A stretch of DNA of 64,000 bases from Phragmitibacter flavus (GCF_005780165.1 NZ_VAUV01000001.1:1-64000); one strand, 5' to 3'. Counted from the first letter of the stretch, positions 2,968-26,784 are shown. Notes: a model not told the origin generated them from the sequence alone. Numbers and translations: made by a program.

Positions 2968-5502
2968 CTATTTTTTCTTCAGCTCAGCGGCAGTCCACGG
3001 AGCAGAACGGGATTTGTGCTTTTCGCGGACTTTCGCCACAAAGGATGTGTCAATGGGCGAGGCGGTGTGCTCCCACTCGCGACGGATGTAGGTCACCACG
3101 GCGGCGATGTCCTCATCGCTCAAATGCATCAAAGGCGGCATGGCGAGATCAAAGGTTTGAGGTCCAACTTTGATCGGACCCGCAACGCCCTGCATGATGA
3201 TTCGCGCCGGAATGTCGGGATTGCCGAGCACCCATTCGCTGTCCACCAAGGTCGGAGCAAGTCCATCAAGCCCCATGCCGTGTGCCTGATGGCAGGCCGC
3301 ACAGTTAATGGTGTAAAGCATTTTTCCTTTCTCAAACTGCTCCTGCTGGGCGGCGGTCAATGGCACGATCTTCGGCGGCGGCGGCGCTCCGGGTTTGCCA
3401 GGCCAGGCAATGCGCTGGTCGATCGACGACAAAAACTTCTTGCCGCTCTTCTGTTTGGCGAAGGCCGCGCTCATCGACTTGATGCTGGCCGGTTCACCCT
3501 CAAACCAGATCAGTTTGATGAGCTTTTTGTCTTTTGGCAGCTCGGCGAGACCTTTCAAAAGCGCGATTTGTGCGGCTCCGGCCACCGGTTGACTGGACGC
3601 CAGCGTCAACAGTTCCTCAAACGGACCCGCCTTGTTCGCACTGGCCACCAGCTTGGCGAGTTCCTCCAAAACCGGACTGAGATTGGCGGCATTTTGATCA
3701 GTCTTGCGTTCGGCCAGCAACAGGGCAAAGGCGGCTTCGCGACCGCGCAATCCGCTCAAAGCACCTTCCCGTGCCAGCGGTTGTTTGCCCGCAGGACCCG
3801 CCATCAGATCCGCCAATGCCGCCAGTGCGTCGGGAAGAGGAATGGAGGTGAATTTGATCGCGAGCTGTGCCACGACCAGGGGCTCGGAATCATTTTTCAT
3901 CGCTCTCAGATCGGACAGCAAATCAAAGCCCGACAACCTCACCGCCGCACTGCGCACATGCACATCGGGGTCTTTCAATCCCCGACGGAGCACTTCGGCA
4001 TTCAGACTACCCAATCCTTCCAGGGTCCACAAAGCATGCAGCCGGGTCAACGGACTGCTCGTTGCGTCATTCAATAGATCCACCAATGCAGGCACGGCCT
4101 TGGTGTCACCGGATTCGACCAACAAACGCTGGGCCGTGTCACGCACCCAGCCGTTGTCGTGTTTCAACGCCGCCACCCGACCAGCGCTGTCAGCAGGAAG
4201 TTTGACCGCAGGTTGGCGTTTTGCCTCCCTCTCTTTGCCGTTGTCCGGGACGATCCTCCAGATGCGGCCCATGTCGATGGGTTGGGCAAGTTTGCGATCT
4301 TCAATGTTGGCGATCAAATAATGCGTCAGGAAGCCCGCATGCTGAATGATGCCGCGATACATGTCGACGATGTAGAGCGCACCATCCGGACCATCGGTGG
4401 CCTGAACCGGACGGAAGCGTTCGTCAGTGGAGGTAAGGAATTCGCGATTCTTCAACACATTCTCGCCGGTCAGAACTCCGCCCTTTTCCGCAATCTTGAA
4501 TCGTTTCACCAGGTTGCCCGCAGGCTCAGGAATGAACGCATTGCCTTTCGCATCCGCCGGCAGCGCGTTGCCGCGATAGATCAAGGCCCCGCAAGTCGCC
4601 GTGCTGCTGCTCATCGTTCCATCGGCGCGCAAGATCGTGCCATAACCGCGGTTCACTCCCGGGGTTGGATGCGACGGCCACACGGTCTGATCCTTCACTA
4701 CTTTTGCGTTGATGCTGGTGGCAGTGCGCAGTTGAGGATTGCGTGAAAGCGCATCGCCCTGAAGAAAATCCGCGCGCAGAAAATCAGAGTTGTAGTTGTA
4801 AAACAAGCGGCCCACATCGTCCTGGCAAAGGCCATACTGACCACGCCCAAGCCCGGCACCTTTCTGCCAGATGCCTCCGGTCAGCCGGAACTTCGTGTTG
4901 TATTTGGCGCTCCAGATCCAGTTGTCCATCGCCCACACTGGCGTGTTGGCCATGTGTTCATGCTGACCGTTAAACGTGCCGTAATCGCTCGCCACAATTT
5001 CCTTGGTGTCCGCCTTGCCGTCGCCATCCGTGTCCTTGCAGAAGAACAGATTCGGCGGTTCCGCCACCAAGGCCCCGCCATTGACCGCCATCACGGATCG
5101 CGGCATGACCAGGTTATCAAGAAACACCGTCGACTTGTCCATTTGTCCGTCGCCATCCGTGTCTTCCAATAGGCTGATGCGTCCGGTGGGCTGCGTTTCC
5201 GTGGAGCCCTGGATGTCATGCATGTAACCGCGCATCTCCACCACATAAAGCCGTCCTTGATCATCAAAGCTGATCGCCACCGGCGCTTCGATAAGAGGTT
5301 CCGCTGCCACCAACTCAATCCGATAACCTTCCTGGATCGCAAAGGTCTTCAAGGCTTCATCAGCCGACAAAGCTTTTGGCGCAGGCAGTTTGAATTTGAT
5401 CTCAAAATCTGCAGGACCCGGATTTTTCTTTTGCTGAGCCATCAGGCCGGGAGCGATGGAGAAGGCGAGAGCGAGAACGGATAAAAAAAGTTTGGATGAC
5501 AT
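2968..5502 (-). CDS. PVC-type membrane-bound dehydrogenase with HEAT repeats and cytochrome c domain
   Basis: The 844-residue protein has a signal peptide (residues 1-22, ending LMAQ). Next comes a six-bladed-propeller dehydrogenase domain of the type seen in Planctomycetes and Verrucomicrobia, with SFDDQGRLYVVEMRGY and two EDTDGDG/KDTDGDG calcium-like loops. A HEAT-like helical repeat region covers roughly residues 430-660. A class I cytochrome c domain closes the protein: CAACH binds haem near residue 733 and the MPP in LAMPPLMHLSDEDI supplies the distal methionine. It should be periplasmic and pass electrons from an unidentified, probably sugar or alcohol, substrate. It stands alone, with a 362-base upstream gap. 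Confidence 0.9.
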   Translation of the reverse strand: MSSKLFLSVLALAFSIAPGLMAQQKKNPGPADFEIKFKLPAPKALSADEALKTFAIQEGYRIELVAAEPLIEAPVAISFDDQGRLYVVEMRGYMHDIQGSTETQPTGRISLLEDTDGDGQMDKSTVFLDNLVMPRSVMAVNGGALVAEPPNLFFCKDTDGDGKADTKEIVASDYGTFNGQHEHMANTPVWAMDNWIWSAKYNTKFRLTGGIWQKGAGLGRGQYGLCQDDVGRLFYNYNSDFLRADFLQGDALSRNPQLRTATSINAKVVKDQTVWPSHPTPGVNRGYGTILRADGTMSSSTATCGALIYRGNALPADAKGNAFIPEPAGNLVKRFKIAEKGGVLTGENVLKNREFLTSTDERFRPVQATDGPDGALYIVDMYRGIIQHAGFLTHYLIANIEDRKLAQPIDMGRIWRIVPDNGKEREAKRQPAVKLPADSAGRVAALKHDNGWVRDTAQRLLVESGDTKAVPALVDLLNDATSSPLTRLHALWTLEGLGSLNAEVLRRGLKDPDVHVRSAAVRLSGFDLLSDLRAMKNDSEPLVVAQLAIKFTSIPLPDALAALADLMAGPAGKQPLAREGALSGLRGREAAFALLLAERKTDQNAANLSPVLEELAKLVASANKAGPFEELLTLASSQPVAGAAQIALLKGLAELPKDKKLIKLIWFEGEPASIKSMSAAFAKQKSGKKFLSSIDQRIAWPGKPGAPPPPKIVPLTAAQQEQFEKGKMLYTINCAACHQAHGMGLDGLAPTLVDSEWVLGNPDIPARIIMQGVAGPIKVGPQTFDLAMPPLMHLSDEDIAAVVTYIRREWEHTASPIDTSFVAKVREKHKSRSAPWTAAELKKK

Positions 5503-5864: not shown

Positions 5865-6890
5865 ATGTCCACAAACACCACCATCAACGCCTACGCCGCC
5901 ACCTCCGCCAAGGGATCCCTCGAACCCTACAGCTTCGATCCCGGCCCGCTTGGTCCTGAAGAAGTCGAAATCGCCGTCTCCCACTGTGGCATCTGTCACT
6001 CCGACCTCTCCATGCTCGACAACGATTGGGGCATGTCGAACTTTCCCTTCGTCCCCGGCCATGAAGCCGTCGGCACCATCACCGCCCTCGGCGAACAAGC
6101 CAAGGGACTTAAAATCGGCCAGCGCGTCGGAGTCGGCTGGACCGCCTTCAGCTGCCTCAGCTGTCCCCAATGTCTGTCCGGTCAACATAACCTCTGCGCC
6201 AAAGGCCAGGGCACCATCGTTGGTCGCCACGGCGGATTCGCCGACAAACTCCGCGCCCAATGGCCCTGGGTGCGCCCCCTCCCTGAAGCCCTTGACCCCG
6301 CCTCCACCGGCCCCCTCCTCTGCGGCGGCATCACTGTCTTCGCCCCGCTTCTCGTCCATGGCATTCTCCCCACCTCACGTGTCGGCGTCATCGGCATCGG
6401 CGGACTCGGTCACATGGCCCTGCAATTCGCCAATAAATGGGGCTGCGAAGTCCACGCCTTCACCACCAGCGACAGCAAGGAGGAGGAGGCCAAAAAACTC
6501 GGAGCGAACTTTGTTCACAACACCAAACGCGACGGCGCGCTCGATCAACTTGCCGGCAGTCTCGACCTGATCATCTCCACCATCAATGTCCCTCTCGACG
6601 TCCCCGGCCTGCTCGGCACCCTCGCTCCCAACGGACGACTCCACGTTGTCGGTGCCGTCCTGGAACCCCTGCCCGTGCCCGCCTTCGGCCTGATCACCGG
6701 CCAAAAATCCATCTCCGGCTCCCCCACCGGAAGTCCCTCCGCCATCGACCAGATGCTCACCTTCAGCGCCCGTCACAACATCGCCCCGGTGACCGAAAGC
6801 TTCCCCATGTCGAAAGTCAACGACGCCCTCGAACACCTCCGCTCCGGCAAAGCCCGTTACCGCATCGTCCTCGAAAATGACCTCGCGTGA
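5865..6890 (+). CDS. zinc-dependent alcohol dehydrogenase (YahK/Adh type)
   Basis: The 341-residue protein is a medium-chain dehydrogenase that interconverts alcohols or aldehydes using NAD(P)H and zinc. The catalytic zinc site is CGICHSD plus the PGHE motif. The structural zinc site is the cysteine cluster CLSCPQCLSGQHNLC. The nucleotide fold carries GIGGLGH. The length fits the family. ATG 5865 was chosen because homology-like sequence begins there and the upstream 38 codons look non-coding. Fragments of this gene's 3' end recur at 14.75 and 16.39 kb. A second, more distant full-length paralogue lies at 18772. Confidence 0.9.
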   Translation: MSTNTTINAYAATSAKGSLEPYSFDPGPLGPEEVEIAVSHCGICHSDLSMLDNDWGMSNFPFVPGHEAVGTITALGEQAKGLKIGQRVGVGWTAFSCLSCPQCLSGQHNLCAKGQGTIVGRHGGFADKLRAQWPWVRPLPEALDPASTGPLLCGGITVFAPLLVHGILPTSRVGVIGIGGLGHMALQFANKWGCEVHAFTTSDSKEEEAKKLGANFVHNTKRDGALDQLAGSLDLIISTINVPLDVPGLLGTLAPNGRLHVVGAVLEPLPVPAFGLITGQKSISGSPTGSPSAIDQMLTFSARHNIAPVTESFPMSKVNDALEHLRSGKARYRIVLENDLA

Positions 6891-7051: not shown

Positions 7052-9988
7052 ATGTTCACTTTGCTTCAGCAGTTCTTTATCAGGACGCTTTGCCTCCTGG
7101 CATGCGGACTAGTGTTTGCGATGTCAGGATCAGCACAGGCACAGGAAGCCAGCGGAATTTTGGATCGGGTCTCCCCTTCCGTCGTGGTAATCGAGTCCGC
7201 CGATGTGACTGGTTCTGGGGTGGTGATCTCGGAACAGGGGTTGATCCTCACCAGTCTTCCATTGGTGGCCTCGCGTATTGATTTCAAAGCATACGCAAAC
7301 ATTCGTAGGAACGGTGTGCTGGAAAAAGTGGAGCTGACCGGACTTGAACTGGTGAAAATCCATCCCAAGCTCGATCTCGCCCTTCTTCAGGCCAGGGTGC
7401 CGCAGGGAGCCAGCATGGTGCCTGCCCGCCTGCTTCCCGCGAGAGACATCATTCAACCGGGCACGCGATGTTATGTTGTCGGAACAGCTCCGGGGCCGGG
7501 GACCGGCGTGGACTCTTTGACGATTGGCGAGGGACTGGTCAGCGCAGGCGTGCGGGAAATCGAGGGCAGGGAGTATTTGCAAGTATCCGCACCCATTCAT
7601 GCAAACAGCAGCGGCGCTCCAATTTTCCTGTCCTCGGGACAGGTAATTGGTATTGCTGCATGGAAGATGCAGGACAGTGAGGGAATCGCATTTGCCACGC
7701 CCACCCAAACGATGGCGTTGCAGGATTTTATCCCGCTGGCAAACTCCACGGGAGACGCAGTTCTGGCCGATCAGGCCTCCGCCATGGCCGAGCGGTTCAT
7801 GCGAGACGCCGATTCCGTGAATGGAGATCAGCGGGTGGAGTCACTCATTCAGGCTATCCGTTTCTATCGCGTCATGCTGTCCGCGATGCTGAACAATCCC
7901 ACCCCACTTCACAACATCGGCGTTGCTTATCATCGTTTGGGAGACAAGAGAATGGCCAAAAAATACTTCGAAGCGGCGGTCAAAATTGCTCCCGAGCATG
8001 GTCTGTCTCTGCATCTGCTTGGCATTTACCTGATGCAGGAGCAGCCCCCCAAAGAAGCCGAAGCAATGGAGCTCTGGTTTCGCGCAGTCACCAAAGACGA
8101 AAACAAAATTGGCGCGCGCGCCTGCGCAGAGGATTTGGCGATTGCATTTTTCAACCAGGGACGTATCCGGGCCGCCTCCTACATGCTGCGCTGGGCGGAT
8201 TCCTTGCATGTCTCAGGCGTTGCTGCAGAAACACCGATCTCCAATGGGTTATGGTCGGATCTGGAAAAACTGCTTCCTGCGGATCAGTTTTCAAAAATTA
8301 AAAGTTTCAAAGGCCCTTTTTCCAAAGAGCAGCTCGCTGCAATCAAAGAGACCCCTTCCAACCTGGCGGCTGGCAAAGCGTCATCCTCCGTCACTCCCAT
8401 GACCACATCGGAGTCAACCATGTCTTCCGCGCGGGAGATGGCAGAGGCTGCGGCACGTGCAGCTCAGGATCTCGCCAACGCCGCAGCAAAACCAACCATG
8501 CCAAAGACCAGCTCGGATGTGGACACACTGCAGAAAAAAATGGAGGAAGAAGCGCGCGCCGCCATCGCAAAATCGGCCCGTGAGGAACAAGGTCACATGG
8601 TAACTCAAAAGGAGTATCAACCCGTGGTCAATGCCCGGGACCGACAGGCTCTGGCCGAAGCCTTGACCAAACCCTTTCGTGCACTTGCAACAAGGAAGCC
8701 TGTTCCAGAAGGAGGCGTGACCATTCCGTTGCCGGAGAAACCCGCAACAGTGATCACTGCGAGTGCTGGCTGGCAACTGGTCATGCATTTTCCCAAGCTG
8801 GCAAAGCTTGGCATTTTCAATCTCGCCTCCCAGGAGTTCGATGGCTTCGTGGATGTTGACGAGGAGAAGATTCAATTCGCATCCGGCGGCTCGCATCTCG
8901 TGGTCTACTCCCCGTCCAATCGACAGATGGCCGTCTATGATCTACGCAGCCTTTCTCTGATCGGCTCAAAAGTCATCGTGCTCGACAAAGGCATTTGTCA
9001 TCTTGAAATGGGATTGTTCAACGAAAACGAGGTGTTCGTTCTTTACTCCGGCGATCTGCCGCAGCAGCAGTTTGCTGGTAGGATGGGCTTTGTTCTTCCG
9101 GCCCTGGTCCGCCTGCCGGATCTAGCGGTTTTGCGCCCTTCCATGCGACTAACCGGGCGAGCCACCGGCAAAGCGATGATCTGGACCGAAAACATGCAAC
9201 TTAGCGGCCAATTGGACGAGAGCGGCACGTCTTTCGTCATCCAGCCCATCGGCCACACCGGCTCGTTCAAAAGCTTCACTCGAGTGACAGGAAATCAGGT
9301 GGAACAGGACAGCTCCCCTTTCGGCGAAAGCATTGGTCCCCATGCCCAACCGGTGCTGGAAGGACGCTTGATCATCAGCAAAACCGCTGTTCTGAACATG
9401 GAACAGCCGGAAGACCTTCACCACCGATTGCGCGGATACAGGACGGCTGCTGGCAAACCACTGGATAGTTATTCCCGTTTTTTCACGCCGATCATCGGCT
9501 TCCCTGGCATGCTTGAGGTAACGCCACTGGAACCAAAAGATCCCACCGGCCGTAGATTCCAGATCTTGGGACTTCCGCGCCTCCACCTGCTGAAAGACAT
9601 CCCTCTGCAGGCGAACGAAAGCGGCAGGCTTGTCGCGCCAGACCGTGACGACTTTCTTTTTGCGTCCGCTTATTCTGATCTGATTGCGTGGGTCGCCCCG
9701 CGCAACAATCAACTCACCCTCTTTACCCTTGGTCTTGCAGACAAAGATGGTCGATTAAAACAACTAGGAACTCCTGGGACAATTTTTCAGCATCAGTTGA
9801 CCCTGTCAGAGGGAGTAAAGACCAAATTGGAATTCGGACCACCTGGACTGACAGTAACTGAGAGCGGGAAGATCGAGTGGCCTGTGCCTTCGGAGCAGGA
9901 AACTGGTCAGGTGCTTCACGCGACGTTTCGTCTGCTGCATGAGGACGGCTCTTTTGAGTATCTAAGTCAGGAGGTGGTCTTCCCATGA
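7052..9988 (+). CDS. exported trypsin-like pseudoprotease with TPR and propeller-like domain
   Basis: The 978-residue protein has a signal peptide (about 1-30, ending AQAQ) and an HtrA/trypsin-like domain (about 35-230). Compared with the paralogue at 11213, the catalytic histidine position holds Pro70 (TSLPLV against TNLHVV). Asp109 and Ser187 are kept, but the serine motif is NSSGAP instead of GNSGGP, so it is probably not a working protease. A short tetratricopeptide region lies at about 283-350, then an Ala-rich, probably helical linker with PMTTSES. From about residue 560 comes the domain shared by all four genes of this operon. The last 65 residues resemble an Ig/cadherin-like module. 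AAAGGAG lies 13 bases before ATG 7052. The stop overlaps the next start by four bases. Confidence 0.8.
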   Translation: MFTLLQQFFIRTLCLLACGLVFAMSGSAQAQEASGILDRVSPSVVVIESADVTGSGVVISEQGLILTSLPLVASRIDFKAYANIRRNGVLEKVELTGLELVKIHPKLDLALLQARVPQGASMVPARLLPARDIIQPGTRCYVVGTAPGPGTGVDSLTIGEGLVSAGVREIEGREYLQVSAPIHANSSGAPIFLSSGQVIGIAAWKMQDSEGIAFATPTQTMALQDFIPLANSTGDAVLADQASAMAERFMRDADSVNGDQRVESLIQAIRFYRVMLSAMLNNPTPLHNIGVAYHRLGDKRMAKKYFEAAVKIAPEHGLSLHLLGIYLMQEQPPKEAEAMELWFRAVTKDENKIGARACAEDLAIAFFNQGRIRAASYMLRWADSLHVSGVAAETPISNGLWSDLEKLLPADQFSKIKSFKGPFSKEQLAAIKETPSNLAAGKASSSVTPMTTSESTMSSAREMAEAAARAAQDLANAAAKPTMPKTSSDVDTLQKKMEEEARAAIAKSAREEQGHMVTQKEYQPVVNARDRQALAEALTKPFRALATRKPVPEGGVTIPLPEKPATVITASAGWQLVMHFPKLAKLGIFNLASQEFDGFVDVDEEKIQFASGGSHLVVYSPSNRQMAVYDLRSLSLIGSKVIVLDKGICHLEMGLFNENEVFVLYSGDLPQQQFAGRMGFVLPALVRLPDLAVLRPSMRLTGRATGKAMIWTENMQLSGQLDESGTSFVIQPIGHTGSFKSFTRVTGNQVEQDSSPFGESIGPHAQPVLEGRLIISKTAVLNMEQPEDLHHRLRGYRTAAGKPLDSYSRFFTPIIGFPGMLEVTPLEPKDPTGRRFQILGLPRLHLLKDIPLQANESGRLVAPDRDDFLFASAYSDLIAWVAPRNNQLTLFTLGLADKDGRLKQLGTPGTIFQHQLTLSEGVKTKLEFGPPGLTVTESGKIEWPVPSEQETGQVLHATFRLLHEDGSFEYLSQEVVFP

Positions 9989-11220
9989 GGTTGTATGTCT
10001 TGCAATTGTTGGCGATCATCCTCTCGAGCGCTTTGCATCAACCCGTCAGCGCTCAGGCGCCTGCCGAACCGCATCCTCTGGCCATTGAAGCTGCTGCTGC
10101 CTATCGTCCGCTGCAAAAGGAGCTGCCTGCCGACGGAATCGAGATCCCTTTGCCTGGACCCGTGCAACGCGTTTTATTGGCCGATTCGGGTTGGAAACTG
10201 GTGCTGCATTTCGCCACCTTGGGACAGTTCGGTGTTTTCAACCTCGCCACCAATCAGTTCGACGGCTACATCGCCTCTCCCGATCCATATGCCCTCGTTG
10301 CAACGGGGGGCAAGTCGCTGGTCATCTACCAACCGGAACGTTTGCTGTTGGAGCATTATTCACTGGAAACTTTGAAGCTGCAAAAGTCCTCTGCCATCCA
10401 GATCCGCGGAAGATTGCGCTACATTGGCATGGGCCTGTTCCGTCCTGACCGCGTCTTTGGTCTTTATGAAGAGACACGAAAACCTGGAGCCGTTTTCACC
10501 ATGGGACCACTTAATCCGCTATTGATCAGCCTCCCCACCATGGAGATGACATTTCCGGAACTAAGGGAGCCCTCAGGACGGCAGGCGAGCCGAATCACCG
10601 AGAAAGATCTGTTGGCCATGCAGGGCGTAATGGATGAGGCAGGAACCATCGGCGCGGTCAGTCATCCTGGCGAGAACAGAATTAACAGTCATATCTATCG
10701 TTTGAAAGACGATTATGTGGAACTGAACTTCTCCGGCCTGAAATCAAGAAATCCAAGGGTTCACGCCGAAAGTGATCGGGTGATTTATCAAAACCAGGTG
10801 GCACCAATCGGCGGTGAAAAAGATTTACTCATTCAACATCACGCGCTTCAAGCGGAAAGACACTGGATATTGGCACCCATCGCTGGCTTCTCAGGCCTGG
10901 TAGCCAGACAGCCAAGCCTGGATGCAGGAGCGGAAAATCCGCGTCCTGGCAGGGACATCGGCGGTGGGTTTAAAGTGCTGAAGTTACCCTCTTTGGATCA
11001 CGTGAAAGACCTTCCGGTATCTGCGGATGTGATGAAGACCCTTTCTGAATTTCCCTCTTACTTCAACAGTGAAATGCTGGCCTCCGCTTACAGCGACCGC
11101 TTGATCTACTTGCAGCTACAGGAGAAGCGGATGCTGATCTTTCCACTTGGCCTTAGAAACACGAACTCGAACCCGATTGCGGACGAATCAGGGAAGGAGG
11201 GCAAAACATCCGATGAGTAA
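9985..11220 (+). CDS. stand-alone exported propeller-like domain protein, operon gene 2
   Basis: The 411-residue protein has a signal peptide (about 1-23, ending VSAQ), then only the domain shared with its neighbours. Family marks are GWKLVLHFATL, GVFNLATNQFDGYI, ATGGKSLVIY and, near the C terminus, ASAYSDRLIYL. Short strand-turn-strand units suggest a beta-propeller; this is inference from pattern, with no family recognised. It lacks the trypsin domain of genes 1 and 3 and the C-terminal Ig-like module of genes 1, 3 and 4. ATG 9985 overlaps the stop of gene 1 in an ATGA, and gene 3 starts eight bases before this gene's end, so translation is probably coupled. Confidence 0.75.
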   Translation: MRLYVLQLLAIILSSALHQPVSAQAPAEPHPLAIEAAAAYRPLQKELPADGIEIPLPGPVQRVLLADSGWKLVLHFATLGQFGVFNLATNQFDGYIASPDPYALVATGGKSLVIYQPERLLLEHYSLETLKLQKSSAIQIRGRLRYIGMGLFRPDRVFGLYEETRKPGAVFTMGPLNPLLISLPTMEMTFPELREPSGRQASRITEKDLLAMQGVMDEAGTIGAVSHPGENRINSHIYRLKDDYVELNFSGLKSRNPRVHAESDRVIYQNQVAPIGGEKDLLIQHHALQAERHWILAPIAGFSGLVARQPSLDAGAENPRPGRDIGGGFKVLKLPSLDHVKDLPVSADVMKTLSEFPSYFNSEMLASAYSDRLIYLQLQEKRMLIFPLGLRNTNSNPIADESGKEGKTSDE

Positions 11221-13330
11221 TTTTTCAAAACGATGGGCTCTTGCCCCCAAGGCTTTCCCCTTGGTGTGGGCGCTTCTTTTCTTCTCTCTGCTCCAATCCA
11301 ATCTTCATGCCCTGGATGCCACGGGGGTTTTCAAAAAAGTCAAGTCTTCGACCGTGCTGGTCGAGACCGCTCTAGGTCATGGTTCAGGTGTCGTGTTGTC
11401 GGCACAGGGATTGATCGTCACCAACTTGCACGTTGTGTCCCCGGACATCGACCTGCGGATCCATGCCGACGTCAGCCGTCATGGCAAGATTGTAGCAACG
11501 GAGATTACAGAAGTCGTGGTCCTCAAAGTTCATCCACAGTATGACCTGGCCATCCTTCAGGCAAAAGCTCCACAGGGAGCCAGCTTCATTCCCGCGACGA
11601 TGGCTCCACGCGATCAAGCCGTGTCCAGCGGAGCCAGATGTTATGTGATCGGCAACCCCGCCGGACCCGGCGGCAAGGTGCTTGATCTTAGCATCACAGA
11701 AGGGTTGGTCAGCGCCACCTCACGAGAGGTAGAGAAGCTGGATTACCTTCAGATCTCCGCCCAGATCAACCCTGGCAATTCAGGTGGGCCCGTCTGCAAT
11801 GATCAGGGTCAGGTCATCGGCATTGCGACTTTCAAGGCAATCAGGCTTGAGGGCGTAGGTTTCGCCATACCGAGCCGCAATCTGGTCATGCAAGACTTTG
11901 TCGATCAGGCAAAACGGCCAGTCAAAGAGGCCCTGGCTGGGCATGATTCCGAGTTGCCCGGTATTGATGGCGCTTCACCCATCATCTCCGCCGACACCAT
12001 GCGCGAAGTAGAACAACAGGCCGATAAACATTTTCGTCCGCAATCCACCCCCGTTCCCGAAGAAGGCGTCATTGTTCCGATGCCGGCCGCGGTGGATGAG
12101 ATGCTGGTAGCCAACGCCGGCTGGCAACTCGTCCTGCGTTTTGCATCCATCAACAGCATCGGCGTTTTTAATCTGGCCAATCAAAAGTTCGATGGCTTCA
12201 TCGAATGCGCAGATCCCGACGCTCTCATCGCGACCGGAGGCCGGATGCTGGTGGTCTACCTGCCATCATCCCACCAGTTGGAAGTCTATGACCTTGAAAC
12301 ATTGGAGAAGACAGTCGAAAAGCCCGTCCAATTGGGGCAGGGCATGAAGGCTCTGCAAATGGGAGCATTGAATCCCTCACACCTCCTCGCATTGTATGCA
12401 ACGCCTCCCGGTCGGGGCATGCTCGACAGCTCTCTGCAGCCAGCCATCATCACACTCCCAGATCTTGACGTGAGTGAACTTGAGTTTAAATCACGGCAGC
12501 TTGGCAAAAATGATTTCCCCCATGCGCCTGCATCCCAGAAGCGGTTCGTCGGCTGCATGGATGACTCAGGGACCCAGGTCGCCCTCAGCAATGATTCGAA
12601 CTCCACCTGGCTTTTCCGCCTTCTGGTCGAAGGAGAAGATCGAGGCGTTTATGTAAGTCATCGTCCCATGAACAACTATCAGGGCAGCAGCACGCAACCT
12701 TATCTGCTGGACGAAGGCCGGATGCTGCTCGCATCAAAGAACCTGGTCGCCCTTCACCTGTTGGGCGACAGCCTGGACCTTGCCGGGCGTCCCACGTTAA
12801 GACCTGATGCGGTCCTCGCTCCTGTATGGGGTTTCAAAGCCATCGTCAATTTTACACGTGCCTTCACCTCCCCTGCTGTCCCTGAAATTGAGATCCTTTC
12901 CATTCCGCACCTCAAAAACCTGAACAAACGCACGGTGCCTGAAACATGGCAGGAAACGCTGAAACAAGTTAGTTCCTGGGGTGCTGGTGATGTCACCATC
13001 ATGGCCAGCGCCAAAGCGGACTTGCTGGCTTGCTGGACGGCCGGAGATAAACGACTGCTGCTGGCTCCACTGAACCTGATCAATCACAATGCTCCTGGGT
13101 CTTTCGCCGAAGTCGGAGAAAAATTTGAGCGAACTTTGCGATTCCCGGAAGGCAGTTCTGCGGCGCTGGCCAGTGGCCCCGAGCAGATGACCATTGATGC
13201 CGCCAAGAAAATTCTGCAATGGCAGGTTCCGAGCGGGCTCGAACGACAGCAGACGGTGACAGCCCTTTTACTGATCACGCATCCAGACGGCCATACCGAA
13301 TATCAACTGGAGCACATTCCTGTAAAATGA
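11213..13330 (+). CDS. exported HtrA-like serine protease with propeller-like domain
   Basis: The 705-residue protein has a signal peptide (about 1-33) and a trypsin-like S1C domain (about 35-235) with a full triad: His73 in TNLHVV, Asp111 in YDLAIL and Ser190 in GNSGGP. No PDZ domain follows. From about residue 275 the shared propeller-like domain begins (GWQLVLRFASI, GVFNLANQKFDGFI), and the C-terminal 65 residues form the Ig/cadherin-like module ending EYQLEHIPVK. Unlike gene 1 there is no TPR region. The likely role is periplasmic or surface proteolysis, with the propeller possibly binding the substrate or partner. ATG 11213 is preceded by AAGGAGGG and overlaps the end of gene 2. The frame is open further upstream but lies inside gene 2. 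Confidence 0.82.
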   Translation: MSNFSKRWALAPKAFPLVWALLFFSLLQSNLHALDATGVFKKVKSSTVLVETALGHGSGVVLSAQGLIVTNLHVVSPDIDLRIHADVSRHGKIVATEITEVVVLKVHPQYDLAILQAKAPQGASFIPATMAPRDQAVSSGARCYVIGNPAGPGGKVLDLSITEGLVSATSREVEKLDYLQISAQINPGNSGGPVCNDQGQVIGIATFKAIRLEGVGFAIPSRNLVMQDFVDQAKRPVKEALAGHDSELPGIDGASPIISADTMREVEQQADKHFRPQSTPVPEEGVIVPMPAAVDEMLVANAGWQLVLRFASINSIGVFNLANQKFDGFIECADPDALIATGGRMLVVYLPSSHQLEVYDLETLEKTVEKPVQLGQGMKALQMGALNPSHLLALYATPPGRGMLDSSLQPAIITLPDLDVSELEFKSRQLGKNDFPHAPASQKRFVGCMDDSGTQVALSNDSNSTWLFRLLVEGEDRGVYVSHRPMNNYQGSSTQPYLLDEGRMLLASKNLVALHLLGDSLDLAGRPTLRPDAVLAPVWGFKAIVNFTRAFTSPAVPEIEILSIPHLKNLNKRTVPETWQETLKQVSSWGAGDVTIMASAKADLLACWTAGDKRLLLAPLNLINHNAPGSFAEVGEKFERTLRFPEGSSAALASGPEQMTIDAAKKILQWQVPSGLERQQTVTALLLITHPDGHTEYQLEHIPVK

Positions 13331-14697
13331 CGCGCTCTTTTCAAACACCTGTCATGAGCATGCTGCCAGTTGCTGCTTTTACGGGTTTTCTGCTAATGCT
13401 TCACTCACAAGCCATGGCGGAACCTCCGCCTCACCCACTGAAGGCTCAGCAGATCTCTGTCCCACCTGAGGGATTTGAAACAGCCCTCCCGGACGCCGTA
13501 ACGCGACTTCATCTGGCGGATAACGGCTGGCGTCTGGTGATGCAATTTGCCACGCTGGACAAAGTGGGTGTGTTCAATCTTGCCACCGCCACCTTCGACG
13601 GATTTATCGACCTGCCCGAACCACGCTCGCTGATTGCCACAGGGGGTAGTGTGATAGTGATATTCCGACCTGACAGCAGGGTGCTGGAGGTTTACGAAAC
13701 TTCGTCCCTGCGCAAGATCAAATCCGCCAGACTAAACATTCGCGGCTCACTTCAAACCATGGCCATGGGGCTGAAAAATGCCCGGGAAATTACCGGGCTT
13801 TGTATGGCAGGATCGGGAATCGCAGGAACCACAAACGTCCAGCTAAGTCCTGTGGTCATCCAGCTGCCAACCTTGGAACTTAGCTATCCTGAACTGATAG
13901 ATGAGAACCAACAGACCCATGATTTCATCCACACTTCCGCCTTCGAGCCTCTAGGTTTGAATATGGATGAGTCAGGGAAAGTCGCCGCCATCCAGACAGA
14001 CAGACACAATACCTCGCATTTAACCCTGCTCCGCCATCTCCCGGGCGGGAAGATTCTCATCACCAAGGAACCTTATCAAGCGGACTTCCCTGAACCCATC
14101 CTGGGCGGACAAATCATCGTAACAAAAGGCCACCTCCTGCTTCAGCAACCAGACGGAGAATGGCTGTGGAAACGCCCGTCGGAAAGCTCGCCCGGCAACT
14201 ATTCAAGGATATTCGGTTATTCTGCGGTGCTGGAGCGTTCAGATCGGGGGGTGAATCATGCGGGCTTTCGAGTGCTTGCCCTTCCCCACCTAACCACGCT
14301 AAAGTCCATCAAGCAGTCCCTGGAATCGATGCGTGCGTTCGCTACAGTGACCTCCGATGTGACTCTGACAGCGGCCTCGGCCTACAGTGACCGGTTTGCA
14401 TGCATCGCCCCGGGAAAACGGTCCATGAGAATATGGGAACTAGGACTCAGAGAATCAGCATCCGATGGACATGCGATTCCTGGCATCCTCTTCAAACGCA
14501 CACTTGCCCTACCCGCAGGAATGTCTGCCAAACTGGAAAGTGCCCCAAAGGGCATGAAACTTGACTCATCGAGCATGACTTTAGAATGGGAGCCTCCGCC
14601 AGACCTTGCGAAAGGCAAAGTCATCAAGGTCATCATCCTGCTGACCAAATCTGACGGCGGCAAAGAATACCATATTGAGGAAATTGTCGTGCCATAG
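13327..14697 (+). CDS. exported propeller-like protein with Ig-like tail, operon gene 4
   Basis: The 456-residue protein has a signal peptide (about 1-34, ending SQAMA) and the shared domain (GWRLVMQFATL, GVFNLATATFDGFI, ATGGSVIVIF, ASAYSDRFACI). It ends with the Ig/cadherin-like module (LTLEWEPPPD and a last strand EYHIEEIVVP). It has no protease domain. Its ATG overlaps the gene 3 stop as ATGA. The order in the operon is therefore protease-like, propeller, protease, propeller, as if a two-gene unit had been duplicated. No function is recognised. Confidence 0.75.
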   Translation: MTRSFQTPVMSMLPVAAFTGFLLMLHSQAMAEPPPHPLKAQQISVPPEGFETALPDAVTRLHLADNGWRLVMQFATLDKVGVFNLATATFDGFIDLPEPRSLIATGGSVIVIFRPDSRVLEVYETSSLRKIKSARLNIRGSLQTMAMGLKNAREITGLCMAGSGIAGTTNVQLSPVVIQLPTLELSYPELIDENQQTHDFIHTSAFEPLGLNMDESGKVAAIQTDRHNTSHLTLLRHLPGGKILITKEPYQADFPEPILGGQIIVTKGHLLLQQPDGEWLWKRPSESSPGNYSRIFGYSAVLERSDRGVNHAGFRVLALPHLTTLKSIKQSLESMRAFATVTSDVTLTAASAYSDRFACIAPGKRSMRIWELGLRESASDGHAIPGILFKRTLALPAGMSAKLESAPKGMKLDSSSMTLEWEPPPDLAKGKVIKVIILLTKSDGGKEYHIEEIVVP

Positions 14698-14749: not shown

Positions 14750-14803
14750 TTCCGCTCCGGCAAAGCCCGTTACCGCATCGTCCTCGAGAACGGCCTCGCC
14801 TAA
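14750..14803 (+). pseudogene. 3' remnant of an alcohol dehydrogenase gene
   Basis: These 54 bases match, with few changes, the last 17 codons of the alcohol dehydrogenase at 5865-6890 and would encode RSGKARYRIVLENGLA and a stop. No more of the gene is present upstream. It lies just past the protease/propeller operon and is best read as the scar of a duplication or deletion. Confidence 0.75.
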
Positions 14804-14811
14804 AAACTTTT

Positions 14812-14838
14812 GGAGTGCGGCGATTCTCGCCGCTTTCC
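14812..14838 (+). repeat. half copy of the GGAGTGCGG repeat element
   Basis: GGAGTGCGG, a short loop region and CCGCTTTCC resemble one arm of the inverted-repeat element at 26648-26755. The core GCGGCGA-TTC-TCGCCGC is itself a seven-pair hairpin. It sits nine bases after the alcohol dehydrogenase remnant. Confidence 0.5.
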
Positions 14839-14898: not shown

Positions 14899-15432
14899 AT
14901 GAAAGCCCTCATCATCGGAGCCACCGGAGCGACAGGAAAGGATCTTGTGCAGGTCCTCTTGCACGACCCAGACTACACCAAGGTTGTCACCTTTGTCCGC
15001 CGCCCCAGCGGGCAATCCCATCCCAAACTCACGGAAATCCTCACCCATTTCAACCACCTGTAGACGGTCGCCGACTCCATCCATGGCGACGTCTGGTTCT
15101 CCTGCCCAGGCACCACCCTCAAAGCCGCCGGCTCCAAGGAAAAGCAATGGCACATCGACCACGACATCCCTGCCAAGTTCGCCCAGATCGCCAAAACCAA
15201 CGGCGTCCCCCGAGCCGTGATCGTCTCCGCCTACGGTGCATCCTCCACCAACAAAGTTTTCTACTCCAAACTCAAAGGCACCCTCGACGAAGCCATCATC
15301 AGTCTCGCCTTTGACACCACCCTCATCTTCCGCCCCGGCTTCCTCCTCTGTTAAGACACCGGTCGCCCCAGCGAACGCCTCATCGCCCAAGGCTTGGAGC
15401 TACTCAACCACCTCGCCATCCTAAAAAATTCC
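14899..15432 (+). pseudogene. NAD(P)-binding atypical SDR gene with two in-frame stops
   Basis: The frame starts MKALIIGATGATGKDLVQVL, a Rossmann glycine motif typical of NAD(P)H-binding reductases of the oxidoreductase HTATIP2/YwnB kind. It is cut by TAG at 15061-15063. The same frame then continues with clear family sequence (FSCPGTTLKAAGSKEKQWHI, AVIVSAYGAS, YSKLKGTLDEAII, LIFRPGFLL) until TAA at 15353-15355, and again for about 25 codons with GRPSERLIAQGLELLNHLAI. Two separate stops in one otherwise intact frame, and the missing last segment, indicate decay rather than a sequencing slip. Confidence 0.85.
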
Positions 15433-16393: not shown

Positions 16394-16473
16394 AACGATG
16401 CCCTCGGACACCTCCGCTCCGGTAGAGTCCGGCAGAACTAGAGACCGTATCGTCTCGAAAACAGAATCGCGTG
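16394..16473 (+). pseudogene. second 3' remnant of an alcohol dehydrogenase gene, scrambled
   Basis: The stretch begins AACGATGCCCTCGGACACCT, close to the gene at 5865 around position 6819, and ends TCGCGTGA like that gene. In between lies an insertion of about a dozen bases, and a TAG interrupts the frame. It is older or more damaged than the remnant at 14750. Confidence 0.6.
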
Positions 16474-26647: not shown

Positions 26648-26755
26648 GGAGTGCGGGGCTTTGCACCGCTTTGGAGGGGATAGAATAGGAGCAGCTCACG
26701 ACCTGTCGGAAATAGTAACGAAGCCAATCCAAAGCGGTGCTGAGCCCCGCACTCC
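26648..26755. repeat. 108-bp element with 28-bp inverted terminal repeats
   Basis: The left arm, 26648-26675, starts GGAGTGCGGGGC and ends CACCGCTTTGGA. The right arm, 26728-26755, is its reverse complement with only two mismatches in 28. About 52 bases lie between. No coding capacity is seen. The form suggests a small non-autonomous element or a REP/BIME-like unit. Half an element occurs at 14812-14838. It lies 29 bases beyond the treS stop and could act as a strong hairpin at the end of that transcript. Confidence 0.8.
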
Positions 26756-26784
26756 AAAAAAACCCCAACACCGTTTGCACCCCA

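Follow-up and report, generated by a model that had tools for sequence, protein, structure and literature searches.

Four overlapping genes of Phragmitibacter flavus (Verrucomicrobiota) raise the question of how a trypsin-like protease is used when it is encoded together with several exported-looking proteins that share a domain without a name. HtrA proteases are the standard quality-control enzymes of the bacterial envelope, and the PDZ domain is taken to be their usual substrate-gating part. The locus was analysed within a window of 64,000 nucleotides, meaning the whole stretch of DNA studied (GCF_005780165.1 NZ_VAUV01000001.1:1-64000). The genes and their products, P1 to P4, are laid out as follows.

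7052..9988, + strand: gene 1, P1, 978 aa; signal-like N-terminus, trypsin-like domain (predicted pseudoprotease), TPR segment, Ala-rich linker, propeller, Ig-like tail
7211..7654, + strand: P1 trypsin-like domain (Pfam Trypsin_2 8e-17; alignment; codons)
7907..7999, + strand: P1 TPR match, residues 286-316, within a longer segment homologous to the G528 relative
8696..9748, + strand: P1 predicted beta-propeller
9764..9985, + strand: P1 Ig-like (He_PIG-type) tail, aligned to the L017 tail
9985..11220, + strand: gene 2, P2, 411 aa; signal-like N-terminus and propeller without Ig-like tail; its ATG overlaps the gene 1 stop by 4 bases
10117..11166, + strand: P2 predicted beta-propeller
11213..13330, + strand: gene 3, P3, 705 aa; signal-like N-terminus, trypsin-like protease predicted to be intact, propeller, Ig-like tail; 8-base overlap with gene 2
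11381..11824, + strand: P3 trypsin-like protease domain (Pfam Trypsin_2 9e-29; alignment; codons)
12047..13084, + strand: P3 predicted beta-propeller (AF2 model of residues 281-624; best Z 17.3 against 7-bladed WD40 propellers)
13100..13327, + strand: P3 Ig-like tail
13327..14697, + strand: gene 4, P4, 456 aa; signal-like N-terminus, propeller, Ig-like tail; 4-base overlap with gene 3
13453..14469, + strand: P4 predicted beta-propeller (AF2 model, mean pLDDT 75.5, best Z 16.6)
14482..14694, + strand: P4 Ig-like tail

The genes start at 7052, 9985, 11213 and 13327, and the successive overlaps of 4, 8 and 4 bases agree with the reading frames and the 4-8-base overlaps given in an initial annotation of this DNA. 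A purine-rich, Shine-Dalgarno-like stretch lies 5' of every ATG (4/4). By inspection, all four products begin with a hydrophobic, signal-peptide-like segment, so that export, as the annotation had it, is the prediction. A scan of the operon for promoters and terminators gave no result above chance.

The four proteins have one domain of ~350 aa in common, with pairwise identity of 28-34% over ~350-430 aa. The two signatures by which it had been noticed, GWxLVxxF and G[VI]FNLAxxxFDG[FY][IV], are both present in 4/4 proteins. A profile of the four domain rows returned 0 matches at E<=10 among 3000 shuffled control sequences, which together with the level of identity indicates that the shared domain reflects real homology. 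Within the source genome, it is confined to P1-P4. Searches of Pfam and NCBIfam gave no convincing match, and at the sequence level the PDB gave none at all. Because neither Pfam nor NCBIfam holds a model for it, its members go unrecognised by both. The domain thus remains without a named family, let alone a well-studied one, but its fold is a familiar one. Specifically, AF2 models of the P3 and P4 units match seven-bladed WD40 propellers across nearly the whole domain (VIA Z 16-17). The shared domain is therefore predicted to be a beta-propeller of an unnamed family, with ~7 blades, a number taken from the matches to seven-bladed structures rather than counted directly. The models were built from four sequences, and some of the propeller domain falls below pLDDT 50. 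In the model of whole P3 (mean pLDDT 53), the propeller is the best part and the remainder is poor.

In P1, P3 and P4, as had been proposed, the propeller leads into an all-beta, Ig-like tail, which P2 lacks. In P1, a TPR segment precedes the propeller. The three tails score below the Pfam He_PIG (PF05345) cut-off, yet they align with the homologous tail of a fused relative (L017), which exceeds it (24.6 vs 24 bits). The L017 tail retrieves 'putative Ig domain' proteins on plasmids (tblastn); the matches of the plasmid tblastn searches are chiefly generic trypsin-like/HtrA and Ig-like.

Trypsin_2 is confined to P1 and P3 among the four proteins (Pfam), which bears out the assignment of trypsin-like domains to genes 1 and 3; as a protease, however, P1 is predicted to be dead. 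P3 keeps the triad, with His73 (11429-11431), Asp111 (11543-11545) and Ser190 (11780-11782). P1 keeps Asp108 (7373-7375) and Ser187 (7610-7612), but the position of the catalytic His is occupied by Pro70, codon CCA (7259-7261). Around these residues, TNLHVV of P3 corresponds to TSLPLV in P1, and NPGNSGGP to HANSSGAP. Since CCA is at least two base changes away from any His codon (CAY), one sequencing error does not account for the substitution. His, Asp and Ser are kept in 6/6 relatives aligned with P1 and P3 and likewise, read by eye, in the G528 relative; no pseudoprotease was seen among the aligned relatives. On these residues, P1 is a putative pseudoprotease with its catalytic His lost and its GNSGG motif broken, and P3 is the sole operon subunit in which a catalytic triad appears intact.

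P3 resembles HtrA/DegP proteases (MEROPS S1C) in its Trypsin_2 domain with intact triad and, judged by eye, in its signal-like N-terminus, and among NCBIfam models the Do/DegP family scores best (2.7e-28). That match reaches 99 vs 416 bits, far under every NCBIfam HtrA cut-off. Unlike HtrA/DegP, the operon proteins have propeller and Ig modules instead of a PDZ domain: Pfam detects none at E<=1 in either P1 or P3, and other domains fill the remaining length. The operon protease is not filed as an HtrA, although its protease domain is HtrA-like, because it lacks a detected PDZ domain. A protease is also joined to a beta-propeller in prolyl oligopeptidase (S9) and in tricorn. S9 enzymes are alpha/beta hydrolases and tricorn is an S41 protease, whereas the operon catalytic domain is trypsin-like (Trypsin_2), another fold. 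Beta-propellers occur in the membrane-coat-like proteins of the same (PVC) superphylum as well, but there an alpha-solenoid lies C-terminal to the propeller in place of the operon's Ig-like beta domain (PMC2799638). The placement of P1 beside P3 recalls that of MamO beside MamE, a magnetosome pair of an active HtrA-like protease and a degenerate partner that has lost catalysis, in which the dead MamO activates MamE-dependent proteolysis (PMC4794232). The analogy is one of arrangement: no propeller or Ig domains are described for MamE and MamO, the operons are unrelated, and the pseudoproteases arose independently. The open-access literature searched yielded no account of a system built in this way, in line with the initial annotation.

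We propose, with confidence a little short of even, that the four genes specify an exported proteolysis module, HtrA-like but PDZ-less, in which the beta-propeller and the Ig-like tail do the binding. Propeller/Ig docking modules would take the place of PDZ domains, and the propellers would hold substrate proteins or one another. Cutting would be carried out by P3, given its triad. P1 would pair with P3 through its protease domain and act as a non-catalytic regulator or scaffold, while its TPR segment might recruit partners. P2 and P4 would serve as docking subunits free of enzyme.

Relatives show how the same parts are distributed elsewhere. Profile searches covered 56 near relatives, 388 genomes across the phylum, 193 of the class of G077 (a genome with a fused gene, below) and 384 of the window's class; the large searches scored a few best candidates per genome, so the counts are lower bounds. 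Among the 56 near relatives, the window genome alone is positive. Fused protease-propeller-Ig genes occur in at least four distant Verrucomicrobiota genomes: G340 (L017), G070 (L018), G077 (L019) and G528 (L097). The G528 gene has the order of P1 (protease, TPR, propeller, Ig), and its similarity to P1 runs nearly the full length through all four parts. A split form occurs in at least four genomes of the same order: G350 (L022), G046 (L070), G042 (L071) and G729 (L099). Here a ~1200-aa protein has two propeller regions with an Ig-like region between them, and its gene adjoins a trypsin-like protease gene on the same strand. The proteases of G350, G046 and G042 are 522-538 aa in frame, with a TPR segment, an Ig-like tail and an intact triad; the frame of the G729 protease extends beyond the fetched locus, which leaves its tail outside view. 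With the propeller profile A3, E values are 2.5e-11 to 1.7e-6 for the twin-propeller proteins and 5e-7 to 2e-6 for the Ig tails of the split proteases. By inspection, the twin-propeller proteins of G350, G046 and G042 have a lipobox-like N-terminus. The N-terminal part of the twin-propeller proteins also looked by eye as if it might hold the remnant of a trypsin-like domain, which Pfam does not support.

The exact four-gene set was found in no second genome among the relatives searched by profile, and contig scans of named genomes with A1 and P3 found nothing. The pairing of protease and propeller is not, in turn, peculiar to P. flavus: fused or adjacent, it is rare but recurrent in other Verrucomicrobiota. 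Fusion in one lineage together with adjacency in another is classic evidence for functional linkage, which argues that protease and propeller work together. Other lineages would then divide the same parts differently, as one fused gene or as a twin-propeller protein with a protease-TPR-Ig gene. G641 and G800 have propeller-Ig genes that stand alone, with no protease gene next to them, and the module thus has further uses. Similar propeller sequences are presumably present in Planctomycetota.

Side by side with these forms, twin-propeller genes of G070 and G077 adjoin a gene whose ~700-aa product looks helical and begins with a signal-like segment. Copies of this family, each beside a propeller gene, lie at L018:3158-5230, L019:3590-5740, L020:3218-5317 and L020:11748-13847 and are 19-33% identical to one another. 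In G077, a helical-partner gene and a TPR-TM-propeller-Ig gene form two tandem units (L020:3218-15872); the propeller therefore also occurs membrane-anchored.

In the protease tree, P1 and P3 are sisters (96/93) and G528 comes next (93/92). The propellers of P1-P4 group in a single clade (100/98), to which G528 is external (100/99), and the best propeller tree is (P1,(P3,(P2,P4))). The suggestion that a two-gene unit had been duplicated, which calls for the groupings (P1,P3) and (P2,P4), is neither demonstrated nor rejected: P2 and P4 group with modest support (86/82), while a P1+P3 propeller grouping is absent from the best tree, though not rejected (p-AU 0.218). As the simplest reading of these sequences, the operon would have grown from a G528-like single gene through tandem duplication; P2 and P4 would have lost the protease, P2-P4 the TPR segment, P1 the His and P2 the Ig tail. 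The same history allows a tentative alternative that we consider clearly less probable than even: the duplication was lineage-specific, the copies shed domains, P3 alone works, and P1, P2 and P4 are decaying or are independent exported binders that form no complex. Monophyly of the window propellers with single-gene G528 outside, the losses from P1 and P2, and propeller-Ig proteins that stand alone elsewhere with no protease nearby are all consistent with it. Decay sits poorly, however, with four intact frames bearing Shine-Dalgarno-like sites and tight overlaps, and with copies that have diverged to ~30% identity without stops; moreover, other lineages also place separate propeller genes beside proteases.

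Adjacent protease and propeller genes would also be expected if P3 were a maturation enzyme clipping P1, P2 and P4, with these as the true effectors, for example binders of surface ligands or polymers. The second-ranked Foldseek match, an archaeal S-layer protein in which a YVTN propeller is likewise followed by an Ig-fold (PKD) domain (PDB 1l0q), and the stand-alone propeller-Ig proteins without a protease point the same way; 1l0q itself has no protease and only ~10% identity to the operon domain. Nevertheless, protease and propeller form a single polypeptide in several lineages, which fits docking better than clipping in trans, and we regard the maturation role as unlikely.

Bacterial conflict systems repeatedly feature trypsin-like and propeller domains, and their trypsin domains are often inactive (PMC7159879); the operon could be seen in that light as a conflict or anti-phage system. 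Against this, all four proteins have signal-like N-termini, and the PADLOC match is limited to the protease domain. The flanking genes encode alcohol dehydrogenases, cytochrome c/HEAT, SHOCT and Laminin_G proteins (Pfam); the MoxR, vWA and STAND partners of such systems are absent from those scanned. A conflict system is thus very improbable here.

With respect to the proteolysis module that we favour, the recurrence of protease with propeller suggests an envelope proteolysis module that is so far undescribed. A recurrent PDZ-free propeller/Ig design, fused or adjacent, would be another targeting route for an HtrA-like protease, and an active/inactive P3/P1 pair would add an independent case of bacterial pseudoprotease regulation. 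More speculatively, Verrucomicrobiota may possess a hitherto undescribed family of complexes for envelope proteolysis, whose HtrA-like protease relies on interchangeable adaptors for its substrates: propeller-Ig subunits, some of them acting in trans, and, in the window, also a dedicated pseudoprotease; some lineages would add the ~700-aa helical partner.

A horizontal origin of the operon was considered and set aside because its composition is unremarkable (GC 0.53-0.55; GC3 0.57-0.60 vs a mean of 0.66, SD 0.06, for 15 other window genes). No empty site for an operon insertion was shown. Upstream, on the other strand, lies a DUF7133, cytochrome c, HEAT-repeat protein (2968-5502). Directly downstream, 14899-15430 holds the decayed remains of an SDR-like, NAD(P)-binding gene, interrupted in frame by two or more stops. 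The operon is also bracketed by repeats: 49 bases of the 3' end of the upstream alcohol dehydrogenase (adh) gene (6838-6886) recur as a 94% identical copy just past the operon (14751-14799), and a decayed further copy lies at 16395-16431. Elsewhere in the genome, an adh paralogue of 60% identity has a 3' end (G000:C31:15165-15233) that is 93% identical over ~70 bases. These repeats suggest that the surroundings of the operon were once rearranged or received an insertion. The short repeat TTTGGAGTGCGG, followed by an inverted repeat, is found at 14809-14822 and 26745-26758 and also past the adh paralogue on C31; the two window copies compare with 0.15 expected by chance.
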